Source: Streptomyces hygroscopicus
Lineage (GTDB): Bacteria > Actinomycetota > Actinomycetes > Streptomycetales > Streptomycetaceae
Length of the DNA stretch: 64,000 nucleotides
Direction of reading: 5' to 3'
Assembly: GCA_002021875.1 (NCBI GenBank)
Contig: CP018627.1
Coordinates: 10,974,001-11,038,000, forward strand
The notes under the pieces were generated by a model that was not told the DNA's origin, searched no databases, and saw only the letters and a program-made list of their open reading frames with translations. Positions 5,792 through 42,823 of this stretch are shown piece after piece (the first letter of the stretch is position 1; each line of letters begins with the position of its first letter). Both the position numbers and the translations under genes were made by a program.

Positions 5792-6676
5792 TCACTGCTC
5801 GGGGTCGGCCCCGAAGAGATGAGCGACGCCGACGACGCGCTCGATGATGACGACGGCCACCGCGGCGAAGAGCACCATCACGGTGCCGACGGCGGTCACG
5901 GTCGGGTCGTAGTTGTACTGGAGGTAGTTGAAGATCCGCACCGGCAGGGTCTGCATATCCGTGGTCACCACGAACAGCGCGATCGTCAGGTCGTCGAAGG
6001 ACGTGATCAGGGCGAAGAACGCCCCCGCGATCAGCGGCCCGCGCACGGCGGGCAGCGTCACATGCCAGAACACCTGCGGCGCCTTCGCCCCCAGACCGGC
6101 GGCGGCCAGCTCGGCCGACCGGTCGAGCCCGGCGAGACCGGCCAGGACCAGGCGCACCGTGTACGGGACGGTCAGCACCAGGTGCGCCAGCAGCAGGGTG
6201 AGCGGGCTGGACGCCATGCCGAGCTGGGCGTACCACTGGAGCAGCCCGATGCCGAGCACGATCGTCGGCACGGCGAACGCACTCGAGAACACCCTGTCCA
6301 ACACCGACTTCCCCGGGAACGGGTAGCGGTGGATGGCCAGCCCCGCGGCGAGCCCGAGCGCCGTGGACACCACGGCCGCTCCAGCCGCCACGCCGATGCT
6401 GAGCAGGAAGGAGTCCAGGAACTCGGGGCGGTTCAGCAGCTCCGCGTACCAGTGCAGGGTCAGCCCCTTGGGCGGGAAGGTGACATAGCTGGTCGTGGTG
6501 AGCGACGAGGCGATGGTCACCAGTACGGGCGCCAGCAGGAACAGCCCGACGAGCGCGGCGAACGCGGCCCCGAGCAGGCGCCTCGCGCGCTCGCCCACGC
6601 CCGCCGCGATCGGCTTGCGCCCGGCCCCGGCCGCCGCCTTGTCCGTCGCCGGTGTGGTTGCCGTTGCCGTGTTCAC
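5792..6676 (-). CDS. ABC transporter permease, PotC type
   Basis: 294 residues. The GTG start at 6676 overlaps the stop of the preceding permease (GTGA), with AAGGAGG just upstream. The first membrane segment is at about residues 33-55, and five or six helices follow. The conserved cytoplasmic EAA loop is recognisable at ELAAAGLGAKAPQVFWHVTLPAVRG, which contacts the ATPase. The family forms the inner-membrane channel of spermidine/putrescine and related importers as a heterodimer with the adjacent permease. Confidence 0.87.
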   Translation of the reverse strand: MNTATATTPATDKAAAGAGRKPIAAGVGERARRLLGAAFAALVGLFLLAPVLVTIASSLTTTSYVTFPPKGLTLHWYAELLNRPEFLDSFLLSIGVAAGAAVVSTALGLAAGLAIHRYPFPGKSVLDRVFSSAFAVPTIVLGIGLLQWYAQLGMASSPLTLLLAHLVLTVPYTVRLVLAGLAGLDRSAELAAAGLGAKAPQVFWHVTLPAVRGPLIAGAFFALITSFDDLTIALFVVTTDMQTLPVRIFNYLQYNYDPTVTAVGTVMVLFAAVAVVIIERVVGVAHLFGADPEQ

Positions 6677-7596
6677 GCGAACACCTCCTTGCCGCCACGC
6701 CCGCGCAGCAGCCGGGCGTACACGGCCGTGAGAATCGTCGTCACCACGATCAGCACGAAGCCGATCGCCGCCGCGTACGGCCAGTTCAGGTTGGACGTCG
6801 CCTCGGTGTAGACGAAGTACGGCATCAGCTTCACCGTGGGCCCGCCCAGAATCGCCGGGGTGACGAAGCTGGAGACGGTCAGGCTGAACACGATCAGCGA
6901 ACCGGCGAGCATCCCCGGCAAGGACAGCGGGACGGTGATCCGCCAGAAGCATGTCCAGCCGCTCGCCCCCAGGCCCTTGGCCGCGGGCGTGAGGGCCGGG
7001 TCGATCCGGTCCAGGCTGCCCATCAGCGGGAGCACCATATAGGCGAGCATCACATGCACCATGCCGATGACGACCGCGGTGTCGTTGTACAGCATCTTCG
7101 GCGCGTCCAGGCCCACGGCGTGGAACCCGTCCGCGATCGGTCCCTTCGGCCCGAGCAGCACCAGCCACCCGTACGCCCTGGTCACCATGGAGATGAGCAG
7201 TGGCGACAGCAGCACGAGGGAGAGGTAGTTGCGGGCCCGGGGCGAGCGTCCGCGCAGATAGACGGCGAACGGGTAGCCCACGACGAGGCAGCCGAGGGTG
7301 GTCAGCGCGCCGATCCACAGGGTGTGCCACAGCACGTCCCGGTAGAAGGAATCCCCGAGGAACCGCGTGTAGTTCTGCAGTGTGGGATCGCCCGCCTGGG
7401 TGCGGAAGCTGTTGTACACCAGCATGAACAGTGGTGCGATGAAGAGCAGGGCGAGCACGGCGATGGCGGGGGAGGCCAGCAGTAGTCCGGTCCGCCAGGG
7501 GCCGCGCGCCTTGACCGGCTGGTGAACCTTCGGGGTCGGCGCGGCGCCGTCGGGCCTCAGGGCCGGGCCGTCAGCGATGCGTGCTGTGGCTGCCAT
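6673..7596 (-). CDS. ABC transporter permease, PotB type
   Basis: 307 residues with six predicted membrane helices and an EAA-type loop (LTPAAKGLGASGWTCFWRIT). The ATG at 7596 lies 40 nt inside the 3' end of the ATPase gene but has AGGAGGT 10 bp upstream, so this overlapping start is preferred. The 30-residue cytoplasmic N-terminus before the first helix (LLLASPAIAVLALLF) is normal for PotB proteins. It pairs with the following permease. Confidence 0.87.
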   Translation of the reverse strand: MAATARIADGPALRPDGAAPTPKVHQPVKARGPWRTGLLLASPAIAVLALLFIAPLFMLVYNSFRTQAGDPTLQNYTRFLGDSFYRDVLWHTLWIGALTTLGCLVVGYPFAVYLRGRSPRARNYLSLVLLSPLLISMVTRAYGWLVLLGPKGPIADGFHAVGLDAPKMLYNDTAVVIGMVHVMLAYMVLPLMGSLDRIDPALTPAAKGLGASGWTCFWRITVPLSLPGMLAGSLIVFSLTVSSFVTPAILGGPTVKLMPYFVYTEATSNLNWPYAAAIGFVLIVVTTILTAVYARLLRGRGGKEVFA

Positions 7597-8738
7597 GCGC
7601 AGATCACCTCCTCGCCCAGCCTGGGCACCTCGGAACCGAACGGCAGCGTGGCCTCGACGCGTCCCGCGGCCGTGGCCACGACGCAGCGGATGCGGGTGCC
7701 GAGGAAGCGGGTGGCCTCGACGGCGCCGGGAAGTCCCGGCCGCGTCGCGTTGTCGATGGGTGTCCTGTCCGAGCGGCCCTTCTCGGGTACGGCCAGCACC
7801 CGCACGGCCTCCGGCCGCACATAGAGCCGTACCGCCTCGCCGTCGCCCGGCGCGGTGCCGACCGGTGTCGCCGTGACGAGGTGCGTGTCACCGATCCGGC
7901 AGCGGTGCCCGTCGGCGGCCGTCCCCGCCGCGATCCCGTCGAGGACGTTGACCTCGCCGACGAACTGCGCCACGAAGTCCGTGGCCGGACGCAGATACAC
8001 GGTCTCGGGGGCGTCCAGCTGATGGATCGTCCCCTCGGCCATCACCGCGATCCGGTCCGACACCGCGAGCGCCTCGTCCTGATCGTGGGTCACCAGAATC
8101 GTGGTGGTGCCCACCCGGCGCTGGAGGGCGGCGACCTCCTCGCGCAGCCGCACCCTGAGCTGGGCGTCGAGGTTGGAGAACGGCTCGTCGAGCAGCAGCA
8201 GGTCGGGTTCCACGATCAGCGCCCTGGCCAGGGCCGTGCGCTGGCGCTGCCCGCCGGAGAGCTGGCGCGGATAGCGCTCGCCCATGCCGTCGAGCCCCAC
8301 CAGCTCCAGGGCCTCGGCCGCCCTGCGCCTGCGCTGGGCGGCCCCGACCTTGCGCATCCGCAGGCCGAACGCGATGTTCTCCGCCACCGTCATATGCGGG
8401 AACAGGGCGTAGGACTGGAAGACCATGCCCATGGCCCGCCGGTTCGCGGGGAGCCGGGTGATGTCGCGGCCGTCCACCTCCACCACGCCGGAGTCGGGCA
8501 GCAGATGGCCCGCCACCATGTTCAGCGTGGTGCTCTTGCCACATCCCGACGGGCCGAGCAGGGTGAGGAACTCACCGGGCTCCATCGTCAGGTCGATACC
8601 GCGTACGACCTCCTTGCCGCCCAGTGCCTTGTGGATTCCCTTCAGGACCAGCCGCCCGCGGGTGCTCGCTGCCCGTGCGGCGGTGTCCGGCCCGGCCGGG
8701 GCGGCCTCCTTGCCCACGGTTTCCGTCCCCGCGGTCAC
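7557..8738 (-). CDS. ABC transporter ATP-binding protein, PotA type
   Basis: 393 residues from the GTG at 8738, which overlaps the stop of the binding-protein gene (GTGA) and has GGAG upstream; an ATG 24 bp further upstream is possible. Walker A GPSGCGKST, Q-loop VFQSYALF, signature LSGGQRQR, Walker B LLLLDEP and the H-loop THDQDEA are all intact. About 110 residues after the ATPase core form the TOBE-like regulatory domain of polyamine/iron-type importers. It energises the two permeases encoded downstream. Confidence 0.9.
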   Translation of the reverse strand: MTAGTETVGKEAAPAGPDTAARAASTRGRLVLKGIHKALGGKEVVRGIDLTMEPGEFLTLLGPSGCGKSTTLNMVAGHLLPDSGVVEVDGRDITRLPANRRAMGMVFQSYALFPHMTVAENIAFGLRMRKVGAAQRRRRAAEALELVGLDGMGERYPRQLSGGQRQRTALARALIVEPDLLLLDEPFSNLDAQLRVRLREEVAALQRRVGTTTILVTHDQDEALAVSDRIAVMAEGTIHQLDAPETVYLRPATDFVAQFVGEVNVLDGIAAGTAADGHRCRIGDTHLVTATPVGTAPGDGEAVRLYVRPEAVRVLAVPEKGRSDRTPIDNATRPGLPGAVEATRFLGTRIRCVVATAAGRVEATLPFGSEVPRLGEEVICAWQPQHASLTARP

Positions 8739-35192: not shown

Positions 35193-36235
35193 TCATCGCT
35201 TCATGCGGCCGCGGATCGCGAGAGCGGCGAGGCCGAGGAGGATCGGCTCCGAGAAGCGGGACGCCATCTCGATGTACCCGCCGGCCACGGTCAGGTCCTG
35301 TTCCCCGGAGCGGAACACGGCCGAGTTGAGCGTCACCTCCAGAGCCTTCTCGAAGCGTTTGCCGGTGAACCGGTCCCCGGTGGGGTTCTTCGGGTCGTCC
35401 TTGTCGATCTCGAAGGTGACCTTGCCGCCGACGGGCGGCACCGTGGCCGCCGCCTCCTGCTTCGGGGAACCCTGGGGCAGGCCGAAGCCGGTCATCAGCA
35501 CGACGGTGAGGAGCATCGACGCCGCGAGCCAGCCGAGCGCGCGTGAGGCGCGCAGGCCGTAGCCGGACAGCAGCCAGTACGCCTGGAGCAGCCAGCGGTC
35601 CGCCTCACTCCAGGTACGGCTGTGGCGGCGCATCTCCATCTCGCCGTAGTAGAAGTCGGCGGCTCCCGGTTCGTCGCGGGCGTCCTCGCGGGCCTTGCGC
35701 AGTTGCAGACGCACCGGGACAGGTCGACGTCGAAGAGGAGCAGCATGGACGCGTCGACACCGGAGAGCGAGGTGACCGAGGGGCGCTGGTCGGGCGCGGT
35801 CGGGTAGGCGGGGAGACCGGAGTGCGCCACATGGTGTTCCATCGACGTCAGGGTGCATCGCTCGGCAAGACGGGCGTGCGTGAGGTCGATCGATGCGCCG
35901 CTCGCCTTCAGGGTGACCGGTGCCTCGAACCAGGCGCCGGTGAAATCGACGTGCTCGGCGACGACTTGGGCGACCGTCGGCTTGGTGATGTGGCTCTCTC
36001 TCAGGTCCAGCAGCCGGACGCCGTGAGCTCCCATGAACCAGGGCCCGGTCGCGAACGACGTACGGCGGAAGACAAGGTGCCCGGCCAGGGTTGTGCCGCT
36101 GCCCGTGCACCGCACCTCGTCGAAGTTGGCAAGCGCCTGGAATTCGGCCCAGTCGAACCGGGCGGCCGAACCGAACATCACGCCGGCGAACACGGCGTCC
36201 TGCCTGAATATCGCCTCTCGCAGTCGCCCTGCGTC
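35193..36235 (-). pseudogene. Pentapeptide-repeat membrane protein, frameshifted and shortened
   Basis: The upstream part (36235 to about 35715) reads AIFRQDAVFAGVMFGSAARF, then TLAGHLVFRRTSF and DASMLLLFDVDLSRC, a degenerate pentapeptide-repeat region. The rest continues in a different frame: LRKAREDARDEPGAADFYYG, a membrane segment near SRALGWLAASMLLTVVLMTG and the C-terminal ILLGLAALAIRGRMKR. Homologues I recall have 60 or more residues between LSRC and LRKARED, so a deletion accompanies the frameshift. No good start codon is visible after the peptidase stop at 36236, so the 5' end may also be lost. Confidence 0.7.
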
Positions 36236-36760
36236 CTATGCGTACGTCGGCCGGGGCCGGGGCCGGGGCCGGGGCCGGGACCGGATGACGGTGCCGAGGA
36301 CGTGGCTTGCGGGGAAGTAGCCGGTCTGGCGGGAGTCGTAGCTGTTGTGTGTGTTGTCGCCCAGGAGCACCAGCGTCCCGGGTGGGACACAACCACCCGT
36401 GGCGGCGTCCGGCTCTGGCAGTGCCCCCGGGGGTGGCCGGTCGCCCGCCACCGCCGCCACCCGCTTGATCATCCACTCTTGTCCGGTACCTGTACCTAGG
36501 GTACCTACGGCCGCCGCCTGGCTTGGGGCGGGTGACGAGCGTGAGCCGTTCCTCTGCCGCACGACGACCACGTGCCCAACCGCGCACCGTCCGCCACGCC
36601 GCACCAGCACCCGCTCCCCGTCGCGGTACGTGGGTTCCATGCTCCCGCCCCGTACGGTTACGACCACGAGCGTTCGTCGCAGCACCGTTCCCGTGATGAG
36701 TGCCATCCCCAGTCCCAGGACCGCCGTCACCGCCGCGCTCGGACATGTCCGTCTCGCCAT
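36236..36760 (-). CDS. S26-family signal peptidase
   Basis: 174 residues. One membrane segment (about 10-28) is followed by the catalytic serine in VRGGSMEPTYRDGERVLV and the general-base lysine in EWMIKRVAAVAGD, then LLGDNTHNSYDSRQTGYFP. All boxes of type I signal peptidases are present. The ATG overlaps the ABC exporter stop (TGATG). It ends in a Pro-Arg tail (RPRPRPRPRP) encoded by a GGGGCC-type hexamer repeat. As the last gene of the unit that begins with a ten-cysteine precursor, it is the likely dedicated protease that removes the leader after the Ala-Ser-Ala site. Confidence 0.83.
   Translation of the reverse strand: MARRTCPSAAVTAVLGLGMALITGTVLRRTLVVVTVRGGSMEPTYRDGERVLVRRGGRCAVGHVVVVRQRNGSRSSPAPSQAAAVGTLGTGTGQEWMIKRVAAVAGDRPPPGALPEPDAATGGCVPPGTLVLLGDNTHNSYDSRQTGYFPASHVLGTVIRSRPRPRPRPRPTYA
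36249..36280. repeat. GGGGCC hexanucleotide microsatellite in the signal peptidase gene
   Basis: About five tandem copies of a GGGGCC/GGCCGG unit lie at the 3' end of the peptidase gene. Unit length is a multiple of three, so copy-number change would lengthen or shorten the Pro-Arg tail without shifting frame. Confidence 0.7.
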
Positions 36761-38700
36761 CAGCGGGCCTCTTCCGGCGTGAGTGGCGACTCTCCCGCGG
36801 AGAGCTGATAGCCACCGGCCTGGAGGGTGAACAGCCGTGCGTACTCGCCGCCCGCCGCCATCAGCACAGTGTGGTTCCCCTGCTCCGCGACCCGCCCGTC
36901 CCGGAGTACGACGATGATGTCCGCGTCCCGCAACGCACTGAGCCGGTGCGAGATCAGCAGGCTGGTACGGGCGCTGCGGTCGCTTTGCAGGGAAGCGTGG
37001 ATCTCGTGCTCCGCCTCCGCGTCGAGCCCGGCCGATGGCTCGTCGAGGATCATCAGTTCGCGCCGCGCATACCCATCGCGCAGGAAGGCCCGCGCCAGCG
37101 CGAGCCGCTGCCACTGCCCGCCGGAAAGGACCACGCCCGTCTCCGGGTTGCCCTTGTCCTCCTGCGTGAAGAACATCCGGGTCAGCAAGGTGTCGTAGCC
37201 CCGCGGCAGTGCGTCCAGCCGGCGGTCGATGCCGGCCCGTCGTGCGGCCTGGCGCATCCGCTCATACGATCGGTCCCGTTCCGTCAGCACGGTGAGGTCG
37301 CCGAGGGCGATGTTCTCCGCCGCTGTCATGTCGTACTGCATGTAGTCCTGGAACACCGCGCCCACTCGTTCCCGTAACCGCGCCGGATCGACCTCACGGA
37401 TGTCCACGCCGTCCCACAGGATCGCGCCGTGCGTCGGGTCGTAGAACCGGCAGATCAGCTTCACCAGAGTGGACTTGCCCGCCCCGTTGAGCCCGACGAG
37501 GGCGAGTGCCCGGCCCTGTGGAATCCGCAGGTCGACGCCGCGCAGCACCCATGGGAGATCGGGCGAGTAGCGGAACCAGACATCCCGGAACTCGATCCCG
37601 TGGCGCAGCGTCGGCAACGGGCGGGGCCGGTCCGCGACCGGGAGGTCCGAGGTGGCCTGCGTCACCGCCGTGTAGTGGTCGAACATCAGCAGCGTCTGCT
37701 GGCCCTGTGCGGCGTCACCCGCCAACGACGCCAGTGCCCCCTGCACACCGGCGATCGCGGCCACGAACATGGTGACATCGCCCACCGACAGTGCCCCGCC
37801 GCGCGCCGCGAGGACCGCCCAGAGCAGCCCACCTCCGGAGACCAGCGCCGCCAGTCCGCCCAGCCCTGTCTGTACGGCGATTTCGCGCCTGTCCATGGCC
37901 CGCTTCGCGGTGTTGGCCGTACGACGTTCCGTCAGCATCCGTTCGCGCAGAAACGGGCCGGTGCCGAAGAGCCGGACCTCCTTGGCCGCTTCCACACTCG
38001 ACAGCAGATCGGCATAGAAGAACTCCCGCCGTTCGACCGGGCCGACCTCCCACAGCATCTGCGCCCGCCGCCGTGCCAGCGCGACTTCGGACCAGAGCAC
38101 GGGCGCCCCGGCCACCAGGAGTATCCCGGCCATCACGGGACTGACGAGGAGGAGCGAGCCGAGGAATCCTCCGATGGTTGCCCCGGCGCGCACAACGCCC
38201 AGGATGCTCTCCGCGACATGGGCGGCCGTTTCGTGGCCCGCCTGCTGGGCCAGGCGCAAGCGGTCCAGGAAGTGCGGGTTCTCGAACCTCCCCAGTCCGA
38301 CGAACCCATCGACCGCGGCGAACAGCCGGTCCTGCATCTCCAGCCCCACCCGGCGGTCCAGCTCCGCTCGCGCGTACCGCATGGTCTGAGAGGCCACCAC
38401 CGCCGTCACACCGAGGCCGGCCAGCGCCGTACCGGGCCACAGCAGCGTCCCCGGGGCACCGTTCGCCAGGTCGTCCAGGACCAGCTTCATCAGCCAGGCC
38501 GTCACCACCGGCAGCGCGCTCACCAGCAGCGACAGTCCTGCATGGAGCAGCAGGGTGCCGGGGGCGGCGCGGGCGGTGACCGCGCAGACGGCGGCGATCC
38601 GCCGCAGCGCGATCACGGCGCGCCCCGAGCGCCCGGAAGGGGCGTAGACGGTGTCCGCCGTCGACTCCTCGTGGCCGCCTCGCCCGCGCATGGTGCTCAC
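36760..38700 (-). CDS. ABC exporter, fused membrane and ATPase domains
   Basis: 646 residues, half-transporter of the B-family. Six helices lie in about residues 30-320. The ATPase domain has Walker A GLNGAGKSTL, signature VVLSGGQWQRLALARA, Walker B LMILDEPSAGLD and LLISHRLSALRDAD. There is no N-terminal C39 peptidase domain, so leader removal must be done by another enzyme, consistent with the S26 peptidase gene that follows. The GTG at 38700 overlaps the thioredoxin-gene stop (GTGA). It probably exports the cysteine-rich peptide. Confidence 0.87.
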   Translation of the reverse strand: MSTMRGRGGHEESTADTVYAPSGRSGRAVIALRRIAAVCAVTARAAPGTLLLHAGLSLLVSALPVVTAWLMKLVLDDLANGAPGTLLWPGTALAGLGVTAVVASQTMRYARAELDRRVGLEMQDRLFAAVDGFVGLGRFENPHFLDRLRLAQQAGHETAAHVAESILGVVRAGATIGGFLGSLLLVSPVMAGILLVAGAPVLWSEVALARRRAQMLWEVGPVERREFFYADLLSSVEAAKEVRLFGTGPFLRERMLTERRTANTAKRAMDRREIAVQTGLGGLAALVSGGGLLWAVLAARGGALSVGDVTMFVAAIAGVQGALASLAGDAAQGQQTLLMFDHYTAVTQATSDLPVADRPRPLPTLRHGIEFRDVWFRYSPDLPWVLRGVDLRIPQGRALALVGLNGAGKSTLVKLICRFYDPTHGAILWDGVDIREVDPARLRERVGAVFQDYMQYDMTAAENIALGDLTVLTERDRSYERMRQAARRAGIDRRLDALPRGYDTLLTRMFFTQEDKGNPETGVVLSGGQWQRLALARAFLRDGYARRELMILDEPSAGLDAEAEHEIHASLQSDRSARTSLLISHRLSALRDADIIVVLRDGRVAEQGNHTVLMAAGGEYARLFTLQAGGYQLSAGESPLTPEEAR

Positions 38701-39245
38701 ACCGGAAGCGTCGGCCGGGACAGGTCCACCGAGTCATCGGTGACCACGACGTCGCCCTCGGCGTCCGGCGCGGCCATGAGCACCGTGGGAAACGCCATGA
38801 TCTCGAATGCCGCGCCCATGGGTTCCTCGTTGCGGGTCTGGGACACGACCTTCGCCACCGACCGCAGTTCGGCGACCATGGGCGCGGCCAGGTCGGCGTC
38901 GCCCACCACGGCGGCCAGTACCCGATCGCGCCCGCCCGGCATCGTGCGGGCGTACTCCACGAACTTCGGGAGCTGTTCCTTGCACGGTCCGCAGGTCGGT
39001 GTGAAGAAGCCCACCAAGGTCGTCCCGGTCATCATGGCGCGGCCCACCGGTTCGCCGTCCACGGTATGGGTGGTGAACTCACCCACCGGCTCGCCGAGTT
39101 CGATCGCCGAGCGTGGCCGGTCGGCGACCCTCATCGCCAGCAGCTCGCCGTGCTCCCGTAGTCGCTTGATCACGCCCAGGGTGAGGAGCAGGTCCAGCGA
39201 ACACAGTGCCCCCACGAGCACCACGGCGCTGATCAGGACTGGCAT
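38697..39245 (-). CDS. TlpA/MauD-like membrane-anchored thioredoxin
   Basis: 182 residues. An N-terminal membrane anchor (VLISAVVLVGALCSLDLLLTL) is followed by an extracytoplasmic thioredoxin-like domain with the redox motif TPTCGPCKEQLPKF and the cis-proline region MAFPTVLMA. GGGAGG precedes the ATG. The arrangement of MauE-like then MauD-like genes matches methylamine-utilisation clusters, where MauD and MauE are needed for the disulfide-rich small subunit of methylamine dehydrogenase. Here the likely client is the ten-cysteine peptide. Confidence 0.83.
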   Translation of the reverse strand: MPVLISAVVLVGALCSLDLLLTLGVIKRLREHGELLAMRVADRPRSAIELGEPVGEFTTHTVDGEPVGRAMMTGTTLVGFFTPTCGPCKEQLPKFVEYARTMPGGRDRVLAAVVGDADLAAPMVAELRSVAKVVSQTRNEEPMGAAFEIMAFPTVLMAAPDAEGDVVVTDDSVDLSRPTLPV

Positions 39246-39840
39246 GGTTCCTCCCGGATGGCCTTCGGATTCTGTGTGCGCGCGTCGAATGGGGGATCGG
39301 CTTGGCCGTGGACGCGCCGAAGAGCTCGGCCAGGTCGTCGAGTACGGTCACCAGGGTGCCCGGGACGAGCCCGGCCAGTGCCGCCAGGATGGCTCCCGTC
39401 GCCGTCACGGGTGCTGGCGCCTGGTTCGCCAGTGTCATCAGGCCGGCCGCCGCCGAGATGGCGGTCAGCAGGACGTTGCGGAGGAGATGGCGGCGGCCGA
39501 GCGGGGCCGCTGAGGCCCCGAAGCACCGGCAGGTGGCGCCCGTGCCCCGCCGCATCGTGCGGGCTATCGCGGCCGCGAAGACGCTCAACAGCCCCGCTGC
39601 GAGGGCCAGTCCGGCCACGGTGCCGTCGGCCGACGGCACGATGAGCAGCGCACAGACGGCGCCCTCCGCGGTGACCACGGTCCCTGCCGCGGGTCCGGCC
39701 AGCCGCGTCGGCACCACTCCCATGGCGGGCACCGACTCCACGAAGGCCGCGAACCTGGCCCGTCCTGCCGCCTTGCTCAGGAAGGCGATCAGGAAGACCA
39801 CGCCGATCATGGCCCGGACTGCGATCACCAGATACTGCAC
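39079..39840 (-). CDS. MauE/DoxX-like redox membrane protein
   Basis: The frame from the GTG at 39840 (GAAAGG upstream) encodes 253 residues. The first 195 or so form four or five membrane helices (VIAVRAMIGVVFLIAFLSKAAG, TVAGLALAAGLLSVFAAAIA and others), with a CRCFG motif between helices as in MauE proteins. The last 55 residues are charged and overlap the thioredoxin gene by 167 nt; a MauE protein normally ends earlier. The overlap suggests a lost stop codon or a frameshift near 39260. It should pass electrons or disulfide equivalents to the MauD-like thioredoxin. Confidence 0.72.
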   Translation of the reverse strand: MQYLVIAVRAMIGVVFLIAFLSKAAGRARFAAFVESVPAMGVVPTRLAGPAAGTVVTAEGAVCALLIVPSADGTVAGLALAAGLLSVFAAAIARTMRRGTGATCRCFGASAAPLGRRHLLRNVLLTAISAAAGLMTLANQAPAPVTATGAILAALAGLVPGTLVTVLDDLAELFGASTAKPIPHSTRAHRIRRPSGRNHASPDQRRGARGGTVFAGPAPHPGRDQATTGARRAAGDEGRRPATLGDRTRRAGG

Positions 39841-39881
39841 AGCGACCCTTTCATCGAAGCAGGGGTGCGGGCTGAGAGTGA

Positions 39882-39923
39882 AGGCGGCCCCCGAGTACCC
39901 GGTCGGCCACTTGGGGGCCGCCT
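39882..39923 (-). terminator. Hairpin between precursor peptide gene and MauE-like gene
   Basis: A 15-bp stem pairs 39882-39896 with 39909-39923 (one G-U wobble on the plus-sense copy) around a 12-nt loop. It lies about 75 bp after the precursor stop on the minus strand. The position is that of an attenuator that lets the precursor be made in excess of the maturation and export proteins. Confidence 0.7.
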
Positions 39924-39997
39924 GTCCGCTGTCGTTCAACGGTGTGCCGCGTACGTCCTTCCGGAGAAGACGGCGGTCGACGCGGACCTGCCTGGTG

Positions 39998-40201
39998 TCA
40001 GCAGCCCACGCAACCGGTGCAGTCGAAGCCTCCGGCCGAGTTCTTGCAGCACCGGGCGTTGCAGCTGCACTGACCGCCGTACTGCTTGTTGCACTGCCAG
40101 CATTGCGGCCAGCACTGCTTCACCTGCACGGCGGAGGCTTCCACCTGAGGAACGAACAGGCCGAGCAGCCTGCTGCCCATCGTGGTGAGCGTCCTGTACA
40201 T
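39998..40201 (-). CDS. Cysteine-rich precursor peptide (candidate bacteriocin/RiPP)
   Basis: 67 residues. The ATG at 40201 has an excellent ribosome site (AAGGAGG, 6 bp upstream), better than an upstream start. The N-terminal part (MYRTLTTMGSRLLGLFVPQV) is a weakly hydrophobic leader ending at Glu-Ala-Ser-Ala, residues 21-24, a plausible signal-peptidase site. The remaining 43 residues contain ten cysteines (30, 34, 37, 45, 47, 51, 52, 61, 64, 67) with Gly, Trp and Asn between, ending in Cys. Even cysteine number and the neighbouring MauE- and MauD-like proteins suggest up to five disulfides. No LanB/LanM, radical SAM or YcaO gene is seen nearby, so lanthionine or thioether formation is not supported. 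Confidence 0.72.
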   Translation of the reverse strand: MYRTLTTMGSRLLGLFVPQVEASAVQVKQCWPQCWQCNKQYGGQCSCNARCCKNSAGGFDCTGCVGC

Positions 40202-40348
40202 GTCCACCCTCCTTACTGTCGGTTCCGGCCCAGTTCTGTGGACTGGACTGGGCACGGGCCGATGTTCAGTCGCTTCAACAGACGGCGCCTGTTGACTCCG
40301 CCACCCTTGCGGTCCGGCAGGGGGATGTCTTGTACGAATGCGACACTC

Positions 40349-41242
40349 TCACTCGGCGAGCAGAACGCTGGTGACCTGATCGGGCAGGAAGTCCAGCGGG
40401 TCGCCGGGTGTGGAGGACGCCCGGCGCGTTCCGAACCGGCCCGGCGTACAGCCGACCCGGTCCTTGAAGGCCCGGGTGAAGTGGGCCTGGTCGTAGTAGC
40501 CCGCGAGGGCCGCGGCCTCAGCCCACGGCAGGCCGCCGTCCTGCAGGCGCAGCGCCTCCTGCAGTCGCAGCACCTGGGCGAACTGCTTGGGCGGCAGGCC
40601 CACTTGCTCGCGAAAGCGCCGCTCCAGCCGTCGGCGGCTCCATCCGGTCTCGGCGGCCAGTTCCCCCACGCGCATCCGGCCACCGGTGCGCCGCAGTCCT
40701 TGCCACATCCAGACCACCTCACGCGCGCATTCCGGCCCGGTCAGGAGCCGGGCCGCGAACACCTCGTCGAGCAGGGCGAAGCGCGATGTCCAGTCGCGGC
40801 ACTCGGCCAGGCGGCAGATGAGACGGCCTGCCTCCTGACCGAGGAGATCGGCCGGGTCCAGGTTGCGCTCCGCCAACTCGGCCATCGGCAGGCCGAATAA
40901 GCGGAAGGCCCCGATCGGGGTCAGCATGACCGTCACGCCGGTCAACTGGCCGGTGTGCTCGCCCAGCGTGGCAGTGGCCCGTAACCCGTTGATCATCGAG
41001 GTCCCCGTGACGGACTGACGGGGGTCCACCGCGTCGGCGATCCGTACCGGCTCACCGAACCCGAACATCACCTTCACCACACCGTCTGGTACCAACAGCC
41101 GACATCGGGGCTGACGTGCCCCGAACCGGAAGCCCCGATAGCCCAGCACGTGCTCGCGCACGGCGGCGCCGGGATCCATGGTGATCAGCTCTCGTGAATC
41201 CGCCGCAGTCGATGAGGCCCTCGGCGAGCGCTTCTCGTGCAT
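40349..41242 (-). CDS. AraC-family transcription regulator
   Basis: 297 residues. The N-terminal ligand or sensor domain (about 20-160, with a LLVPDGVVKVMFGFG segment) resembles that of regulators with a DUF6597-type domain. The C-terminal double helix-turn-helix lies at about 180-280 (MRVGELAAETGWSRRRLERRFREQVG, then AAALAGYYDQAHFTRAFKDRVG). GGGGAAGG precedes the ATG. It lies 147 bp upstream of the cysteine-rich peptide gene in the same direction and may control that unit. Confidence 0.83.
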   Translation of the reverse strand: MHEKRSPRASSTAADSRELITMDPGAAVREHVLGYRGFRFGARQPRCRLLVPDGVVKVMFGFGEPVRIADAVDPRQSVTGTSMINGLRATATLGEHTGQLTGVTVMLTPIGAFRLFGLPMAELAERNLDPADLLGQEAGRLICRLAECRDWTSRFALLDEVFAARLLTGPECAREVVWMWQGLRRTGGRMRVGELAAETGWSRRRLERRFREQVGLPPKQFAQVLRLQEALRLQDGGLPWAEAAALAGYYDQAHFTRAFKDRVGCTPGRFGTRRASSTPGDPLDFLPDQVTSVLLAE

Positions 41243-42220: not shown

Positions 42221-42823
42221 GTGAATCCGGGCATCGTCGGACAGGCGGTCGGCCTGTTCGCCGTCACCAACGTCGACGACATCCTGATCCTGTCCCTGTT
42301 CTTCGCCCAGGGCGCCCGCCACCGCGGATCGGCCCGCCGGATCGTGCTCGGCCAGTACCTGGGCTTCGCCGCCATCCTCGCCGTCGCGGCCGCCGCCGCG
42401 TTCGGCGCGACCTTCCTGCCCGAGACGGCCGTCCCCTACCTCGGCCTGCTGCCCCTCGCCCTCGGGCTCAAGGCGGCCTGGCAGGCATGGAAGCAGCGGG
42501 GCGAGGGCGACGACGAGGATGGTCACGCGGCGGAGGGCGGCGGGCCCAGAGCACTGGAGGTCGCCGCGGTCACCTTCGCCAACGGCGGGGACAACATCGG
42601 TGTCTACGTCCCCGTGTTCGCCACCGCCGGAGCGGGCGGGATGAGCGTGTACGCGGTCGTCTTCCTCGCCCTGGTCGGCGTGTGGTGCCTCGTCGGCCGG
42701 TTCTTCGCCGGCCGCCCGGTCATCGCCAAGGCGCTCAGCCGGTGGGGCCACGTTCTGCTGCCGCTGGTGCTGATCGCCCTCGGCCTGCTCATCCTGATCG
42801 AGGGCGGCGCCTTCGGCCTGTAG
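42221..42823 (+). CDS. CadD-family cadmium/cation transporter
   Basis: 200 residues with five or six helices. TNVDDILILSLFFAQGA in the first helix and FANGGDNIGVYVPVFA after the central loop are hallmarks of the CadD/LysE-superfamily cadmium resistance proteins. The central cytoplasmic loop is acidic and has one histidine (EGDDEDGHAAEG). GAGAGG stands 10 bp before the GTG start. It exports divalent metal or a related cation at the plasma membrane. It is a single-gene unit. Confidence 0.85.
   Translation: MNPGIVGQAVGLFAVTNVDDILILSLFFAQGARHRGSARRIVLGQYLGFAAILAVAAAAAFGATFLPETAVPYLGLLPLALGLKAAWQAWKQRGEGDDEDGHAAEGGGPRALEVAAVTFANGGDNIGVYVPVFATAGAGGMSVYAVVFLALVGVWCLVGRFFAGRPVIAKALSRWGHVLLPLVLIALGLLILIEGGAFGL

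Follow-up and report, generated by a model that had tools for sequence, protein, structure and literature searches.

A 64,000-nucleotide stretch of the Streptomyces hygroscopicus genome (contig CP018627.1, positions 10,974,001 to 11,038,000; hereafter the window) contains a compact gene cassette that most probably is dedicated to a secreted disulfide-rich peptide, which would be exported by an ATP-binding cassette (ABC) transporter, trimmed by an S26 peptidase, and oxidized by a MauE/MauD-like pair. The genes lie on the minus strand of this 12.0-Mb, single-contig genome in the transcription order AraC regulator, precursor, MauE, MauD-like thioredoxin, ABC exporter, and S26 peptidase (Table 1). 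An earlier inspection of the letters alone (the sequence-only reading) had described a 67-residue precursor with ten Cys residues and an Ala-Ser-Ala end, with MauE, a CGPC thioredoxin, an ABC exporter lacking a C39 domain, and an S26 peptidase encoded behind it in the same orientation and an AraC gene upstream. All of these were located, the precursor behind a Shine–Dalgarno sequence and the other genes by Pfam or NCBIfam matches. Its proposal, that a disulfide-rich peptide is exported, oxidized, and trimmed, is the interpretation best supported by the features described below.

A search that used only a MauD alignment as query against named genome contigs returned 127 relatives, and the best 80 loci were used for the locus counts. 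By title, all 80 were from actinomycetes, including Streptomyces, Embleya, Micromonospora, Nonomuraea, Microbispora, Actinomadura, Thermobifida, Longimycelium, and other genera. Leaders selected by motif, 41 in all, were taken from these loci to build a leader profile (hidden Markov model, HMM); with it, 75 loci showed a leader with three or more Cys residues after it, and L108 was added by eye. The short Cys-rich frame was thus kept in 76 of the 80 MauD-selected loci, as expected if, as the sequence-only reading held, it belongs with such gene sets. The arrangement described there also recurred in other actinomycetes: the order precursor–MauE–MauD–ABC–S26 on a single strand was found in 39 of the 80 loci, and precursor–MauD–ABC–S26 in ten further loci, in a count covering the cassette families only. 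The reverse test started from the precursor profiles and used 49 loci, one per genome with the best match of each, the weakest matches being left out (30 of 38 positive genomes of the genus and 19 of 23 of the class; the window's own locus is included, and its entry from the class search, L001, is the same place as L120). In all 49, one or more partner genes lay no farther than 1.5 kb away, MauD in 47 and MauE in 41. When the 80 homologous loci were dinucleotide-shuffled five times, no leader-plus-cysteine open reading frame (ORF) passed the same thresholds, a control that matters because the leader profile was trained on some of those loci.

Further observations concern the short frame as a gene. 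Its ATG (40201) is preceded by AAGGAGG, and a Shine–Dalgarno-like word stood before 73 of the 82 precursors of related loci, against a background of 13.7 percent at random positions. When the window was compared with four close relatives, nonsynonymous divergence (dN, 0.010–0.026) was lower than synonymous divergence (dS, 0.07–0.14) in each case, a direction that, over few sites, fits a protein that has been kept. The precursor profiles matched 38 of 392 genomes of the genus (E ≤ 0.01) and 23 of 394 genomes of the class (E ≤ 0.001), own genome included in both, as well as 40 of 120 genomes of one other family, although some weak matches in these genome-wide counts may be due to chance. Comparison of 57 precursors with Pfam (E 0.01) gave no match, and NCBIfam gave one at chance level (0.0098).

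The cassette was also found on plasmids. Eleven records of the plasmid collection, some of them chromosome-sized, matched MauD, and eight were from Streptomyces. Both Streptomyces plasmids that were inspected carried a compact cassette. The 111-kb S. atratus plasmid NZ_CP108285 encodes precursor, MauE, MauD, ABC, and S26, with a BTAD regulator before the cassette and an integrase after it. On NZ_CP107962 (429 kb) the cassette lies between insertion sequence elements, behind an AraC regulator; its MauE lacks annotation and was found by tblastn. Two genomes contained ten precursor matches each, a few with a stop. At L174 (6040-11965, plus strand), seven six-Cys precursors surround a single MauD–ABC–S26–MauE set, and all seven show the pattern C-C-CC-C-C. 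Such tandem, diverged copies with fixed Cys residues resemble actifensin arrays and by this analogy suggest a role in competition.

All ten Cys residues of the window precursor lie in its 43-residue core. The leaders follow the approximate consensus M.....LGDRLL..FVPK.EAxA and were free of Cys in 82 of 82 precursors. Ala occupied both −3 and −1 in 80 of the 82 leaders, −2 being variable, and the Ala-x-Ala end was present in 31 of the 32 precursors found by the HMM only; the two Ala positions had been restricted to small residues in the first motif, whose matches served to train the HMM. Ala-x-Ala agrees with the specificity of signal peptidase I. Since this end and an S26 signal peptidase are hallmarks of Sec export, and ABC proteins are often self-protective, the leader might instead be a short Sec signal cut by S26, with the ABC protein acting as an immunity or drug pump. 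We regard this as unlikely. Judged without a signal-peptide predictor, charged residues run through the would-be hydrophobic core (DRLL..FVPK.E), and the maximum 12-residue hydropathy of the leaders was low (mean 1.0, highest 1.78), with no long hydrophobic stretch; moreover, the ABC gene was present in 73 of the 80 MauD-selected loci.

Core lengths ranged from 28 to 49 residues. Over 800 random pairs, mean identity was 43 percent for the leader, 39 percent for the core, and 26 percent for the core without shared Cys residues, so that the contrast between leader and core is due to non-Cys positions only. That cores vary while the leader and machinery recur suggests diversifying pressure on weapons or signals, and the peptide is most likely bacteriocin- or toxin-like. 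A search of solved structures returned only one match, at E 0.52.

The number of Cys residues in the core was even (4, 6, 8, 10, or 12) in 79 of 82 precursors. After clustering, 57 of 60 clusters were even (binomial p 3e-14 versus one half, a value that serves as a guide only because related cores are not independent). The trend held under each clustering tried, stricter ones giving 25 of 27 and 16 of 17, and 31 of 32 cores of the HMM-only precursors were even. Precursor selection never required an even number, and the precursors of L108 and L174 are not included in these parity counts. An even number fits full disulfide pairing, and parity is not predicted for free thiols; we infer on this basis that the mature peptide contains disulfides. 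With five of them, the calculated monoisotopic mass of the window core is 4639.78.

The composition of the cores bears on two other explanations. Across 60 representative cores, Cys accounted for 19.7 percent of residues, as might befit a metal-binding or redox-active thiol peptide whose Cys residues are kept reduced or shuffled by MauD and MauE. Thioredoxin-fold proteins can be reductive, and metal-related genes occur nearby: a CadD-like transporter frame lies approximately 2 kb from the precursor on the opposite strand (42221-42823, plus; TIGR00779 112.8 bits, below the cut-off of 181.65), and a TIGR03086 metal-binding protein is encoded approximately 3.7 kb from the L172 precursor. However, even parity across very different cores argues for pairing, His was rare (1.5 percent), and neither metal-related gene was common to both annotated plasmid cassettes; a thiol peptide is thus quite improbable. 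The cores were also approximately 15 percent aromatic (Tyr 8.8, Trp 4.2 percent), which could supply sites for extra crosslinks made by enzymes encoded outside the cassette, so that disulfides would not be the whole of the chemistry. In neither annotated plasmid cassette was a modifying enzyme encoded between regulator and S26, and we consider such crosslinks highly improbable.

Sequence motifs of the machinery proteins were conserved. The CxCFG motif of MauE was aligned in 61 of 61 detected relatives, and both Cys residues of the MauD CxxC in 79 of 80, the remaining alignment stopping short of them. The catalytic-type Ser of S26 was aligned in 69 of 70 proteins and the Lys in all 70; these aligned counts replaced strict patterns, which had matched 48 of 70 S26 and 65 of 80 MauD proteins. 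Walker A was present in 73 of 73 ABC proteins, and no C39 domain was found among the Pfam matches of the window exporter or on four relatives. The thioredoxin scored 16.4 bits against the TIGR02661 MauD model (cut-off 188.6) and is named only "MauD-like" because this score is far under the cut-off.

The resemblance of the pair to MauE and MauD, together with an AraC protein that is weakly QhpR-like (28.6 bits, cut-off 250), could also mean that the cassette is left over from a system for the maturation of methylamine dehydrogenase or quinohemoprotein amine dehydrogenase. In a genome-wide search for the methylamine dehydrogenase light chain (PF02975), other dehydrogenase subunits not being searched, the one match (E 0.129, 15.9 bits) was below the cut-off of 25, and no dehydrogenase was encoded in the two annotated plasmid cassettes. 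A methylamine dehydrogenase remnant was rejected on the light chain, and an origin in either maturation system is almost certainly incorrect. The statement of the sequence-only reading that no dehydrogenase genes occur here thus holds, genome-wide, as far as the light chain is concerned.

Several points weigh against a cassette dedicated to a disulfide-rich peptide. Detection of the machinery, defined as similarity to the genes of the window and of L035 (MauE at least 40 bits, ABC at least 300 bits), was incomplete, with MauE in 61, S26 in 70, and ABC in 73 of the 80 loci; contig ends and thresholds explain some of the undetected genes, and MauE may be dispensable or encoded elsewhere. The exporter frame of L078 has a stop, and four of the 80 loci (L069, L080, L085, and L095) had no detected precursor; of these, L069 has a short MauE frame and appears to be a degraded locus. 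The conservation of leader and Ala-x-Ala is partly built in by the selection described above, three cores have seven Cys residues, and with Cys counted, cores are almost as similar as leaders (39 versus 43 percent). MauD could act as an isomerase or reductant. Finally, the AlphaFold model of the window precursor was poor (predicted local distance difference test score, pLDDT, 58) and was left unused.

At L095, a MauE–MauD pair (6267-8132, plus strand) was observed for which exporter, peptidase, and precursor were not detected. An adjacent ORF is CheW-like, and this pair is perhaps another use of the redox proteins.

On balance we favor a dedicated cassette, for which we infer export, oxidation, and cleavage in the following order. 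The leader, Cys-free and without a long hydrophobic core, would bring the precursor, still unfolded, to the ABC exporter. Both S26 signal peptidases and this type of membrane-anchored thioredoxin are oriented toward the cell exterior. On that side of the membrane, the MauD-like thioredoxin would join the ten Cys residues in five disulfides and would in turn be re-oxidized by MauE, a redox protein of the membrane that bears CxCFG, the electrons presumably passing to quinone. The S26 peptidase would then cut after Ala-x-Ala, releasing the 43-residue peptide.

If this is correct, MauE and MauD gain a second role as a pair for oxidative peptide folding, and actinomycetes possess a class of disulfide scaffolds with no matching model found in Pfam or NCBIfam. 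We give about even odds to a broader proposal, in which the system is an actinomycete counterpart of venom or defensin libraries: a constant leader and MauE/MauD–ABC–S26 line would pair 4 to 12 Cys residues, and tolerate very different cores, so that secreted scaffolds could diversify in genomes and on plasmids, in some cases in tandem arrays or at approximately ten precursors per genome. The cassette is small and could be moved to a laboratory Streptomyces, where a small substrate would allow a direct test of MauE/MauD function. The permissiveness of the core also hints at a way of producing disulfide-rich peptides.

Table 1. Features of the cassette (positions are those of the window)
Feature	Position	Strand	Basis
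AraC-family regulator	40349-41242	-	PF12833 7.9e-22
Shine-Dalgarno AAGGAGG of precursor	40208-40214	-	Sequence
Precursor peptide gene, 67 aa, ten Cys	39998-40201	-	ORF and relatives
Leader, 24 aa, MYRTLTTMGSRLLGLFVPQVEASA, A-S-A cleavage-like end	40130-40201	-	Common to 82 precursors of related loci
Predicted mature core, 43 aa, 10 Cys	40001-40129	-	Even Cys number as in relatives
Hairpin in precursor/MauE gap, possible attenuator	39883-39922	-	Fold of gap, z -2.99
MauE-like membrane protein, CxCFG	39079-39840	-	PF07291 8e-22
MauD-like membrane-anchored thioredoxin, CGPC	38697-39245	-	PF00085 barely above cut-off
ABC exporter, fused transmembrane and nucleotide-binding domains, without C39 peptidase	36760-38700	-	PF00005, PF00664 (partial)
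S26 signal-peptidase-like protease, candidate leader peptidase	36236-36760	-	TIGR02227 65.3 bits, cut-off 47

Within the cassette, MauD and ABC overlap by 4 nt and ABC and S26 by 1 nt, which resembles a translationally coupled operon. The likely start of MauE, read from the sequence, is GTG 39840. The MauE frame stays open for approximately 166 nt out of frame into MauD (39079-39245), as it does in genome G055; unlike in the window, MauE of L003 (genome G018) stops before MauD. A second MauE homologue above cut-off is encoded elsewhere in the window's genome (G000:C1:1814320-1814706; L167). The C-terminus of S26 (36236-36300, minus strand) is an (Arg-Pro)n tail from a GGCCGG-like repeat run. 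On the 3' side of S26, a minus-strand frame (35193-36260) matched no Pfam family, and coding potential there, judged by eye, appears to switch frame near 35720, like that of a frameshifted gene. AraC was rejected as a fixed part of the cassette: an AraC-like gene was directly upstream in only 8 of the 80 loci, and L172 has a BTAD regulator in its place.

The gap of approximately 157 bases between precursor and MauE holds a strong hairpin. The comparison with relatives used 45 of the 82 precursors, namely those directly followed by MauE in the same orientation, after removal of duplicates. Across these 45, the 90 nt 3' of the precursor were more structured than the 90 nt 5' of it, with z < -2 in 18 of 45 downstream versus 7 of 45 upstream regions (p 3e-4). 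Ten precursor–MauE gaps were folded, that of L045 giving a z of only -0.12. For an attenuator, these data are no more than suggestive.

Finally, we compared the cassette with known systems. Double-glycine bacteriocins combine a leader, a C39 ABC exporter, and a small core. The cassette likewise has a leader, an ABC exporter, and a small core, but with Ala-x-Ala rather than GG, an exporter without C39, and a separate S26 protease; with neither C39 nor a GG site, it does not belong to this class. The actifensins and actinomycesin, defensin-like bacteriocins of Actinomyces, share with it a leader and a small disulfide-paired core, adjoining ABC transporter genes, multicopy precursor arrays, and an actinobacterial host (PMC6989792, PMC8819291). 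MauE is not mentioned in the actifensin paper (PMC6989792), and the actifensin pattern given there, C-X5-12-C-X3-C-X9-10-C-X4-5-C-X-C, occurred in 0 of 83 cores when no Cys was allowed in loops, so that actifensin membership was rejected. The cis-defensin pattern CX(2,18)CX(3)CX(2,12)CX(4,17)CXC (PMC11561630) was not matched by the window core; with loop Cys allowed, it matched 11 of 83 cores. A knottin fold was considered on account of the pattern C-C-CC-C-C, which was seen in 6 of 17 six-Cys clusters as well as in the seven L174 precursors. A loose inhibitor cystine knot spacing was found in 4 of 21 six-Cys cores, the window core having ten Cys residues, and the model of the L077 core (pLDDT 78.7) gave one PDB match, at E 8.6.

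Methylamine metabolism requires MauE and MauD, and MauE may be needed to form disulfides in the small subunit of the dehydrogenase (as cited in PMC7794033). There, as proposed here, a redox pair would serve a disulfide-rich secreted small protein, whereas the cassette would act on a variable peptide for which it encodes both an exporter and a protease. The cassette also has features expected of ribosomally synthesized and post-translationally modified peptides (RiPPs), namely a conserved leader, a core variable at non-Cys positions, and dedicated processing genes in the cluster.

The closest precedent is a paragraph of the decRiPPter study, which already anticipates the cassette. It lists three Streptomyces candidate RiPP families that contain mauE, and in one case mauD as well. 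Every family has a precursor with eight or more Cys residues, and a role in RiPP modification is proposed; other mau genes were not found in the three genomes named, and the strict filter demands transporter, peptidase, and regulator (PMC7794033). The statement of the sequence-only reading that it knew of no described system with exactly this content thus needs qualification, although in that paragraph the mauE families are predictions without experiments on them. No other published work on mauE-associated peptides was among the matches listed in a literature search that had preprints and most subscription papers outside its scope. The window shares with the mauE/mauD families both genes beside a precursor with at least eight Cys residues, and S. 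viridosporus, named there, carries the cassette in another strain found here, NRRL 2414 (L051). The window is very probably a member of the predicted mauE/mauD group, and its precursor would belong to their family. As far as that paragraph goes, the decRiPPter account is confined to Streptomyces and is given without leader motif, Ala-x-Ala, parity, or wider distribution (PMC7794033). The present analysis extends this account more broadly, to a single leader-defined superfamily across actinomycete genera, with Ala-x-Ala, cysteine parity, tandem arrays, and plasmid copies.

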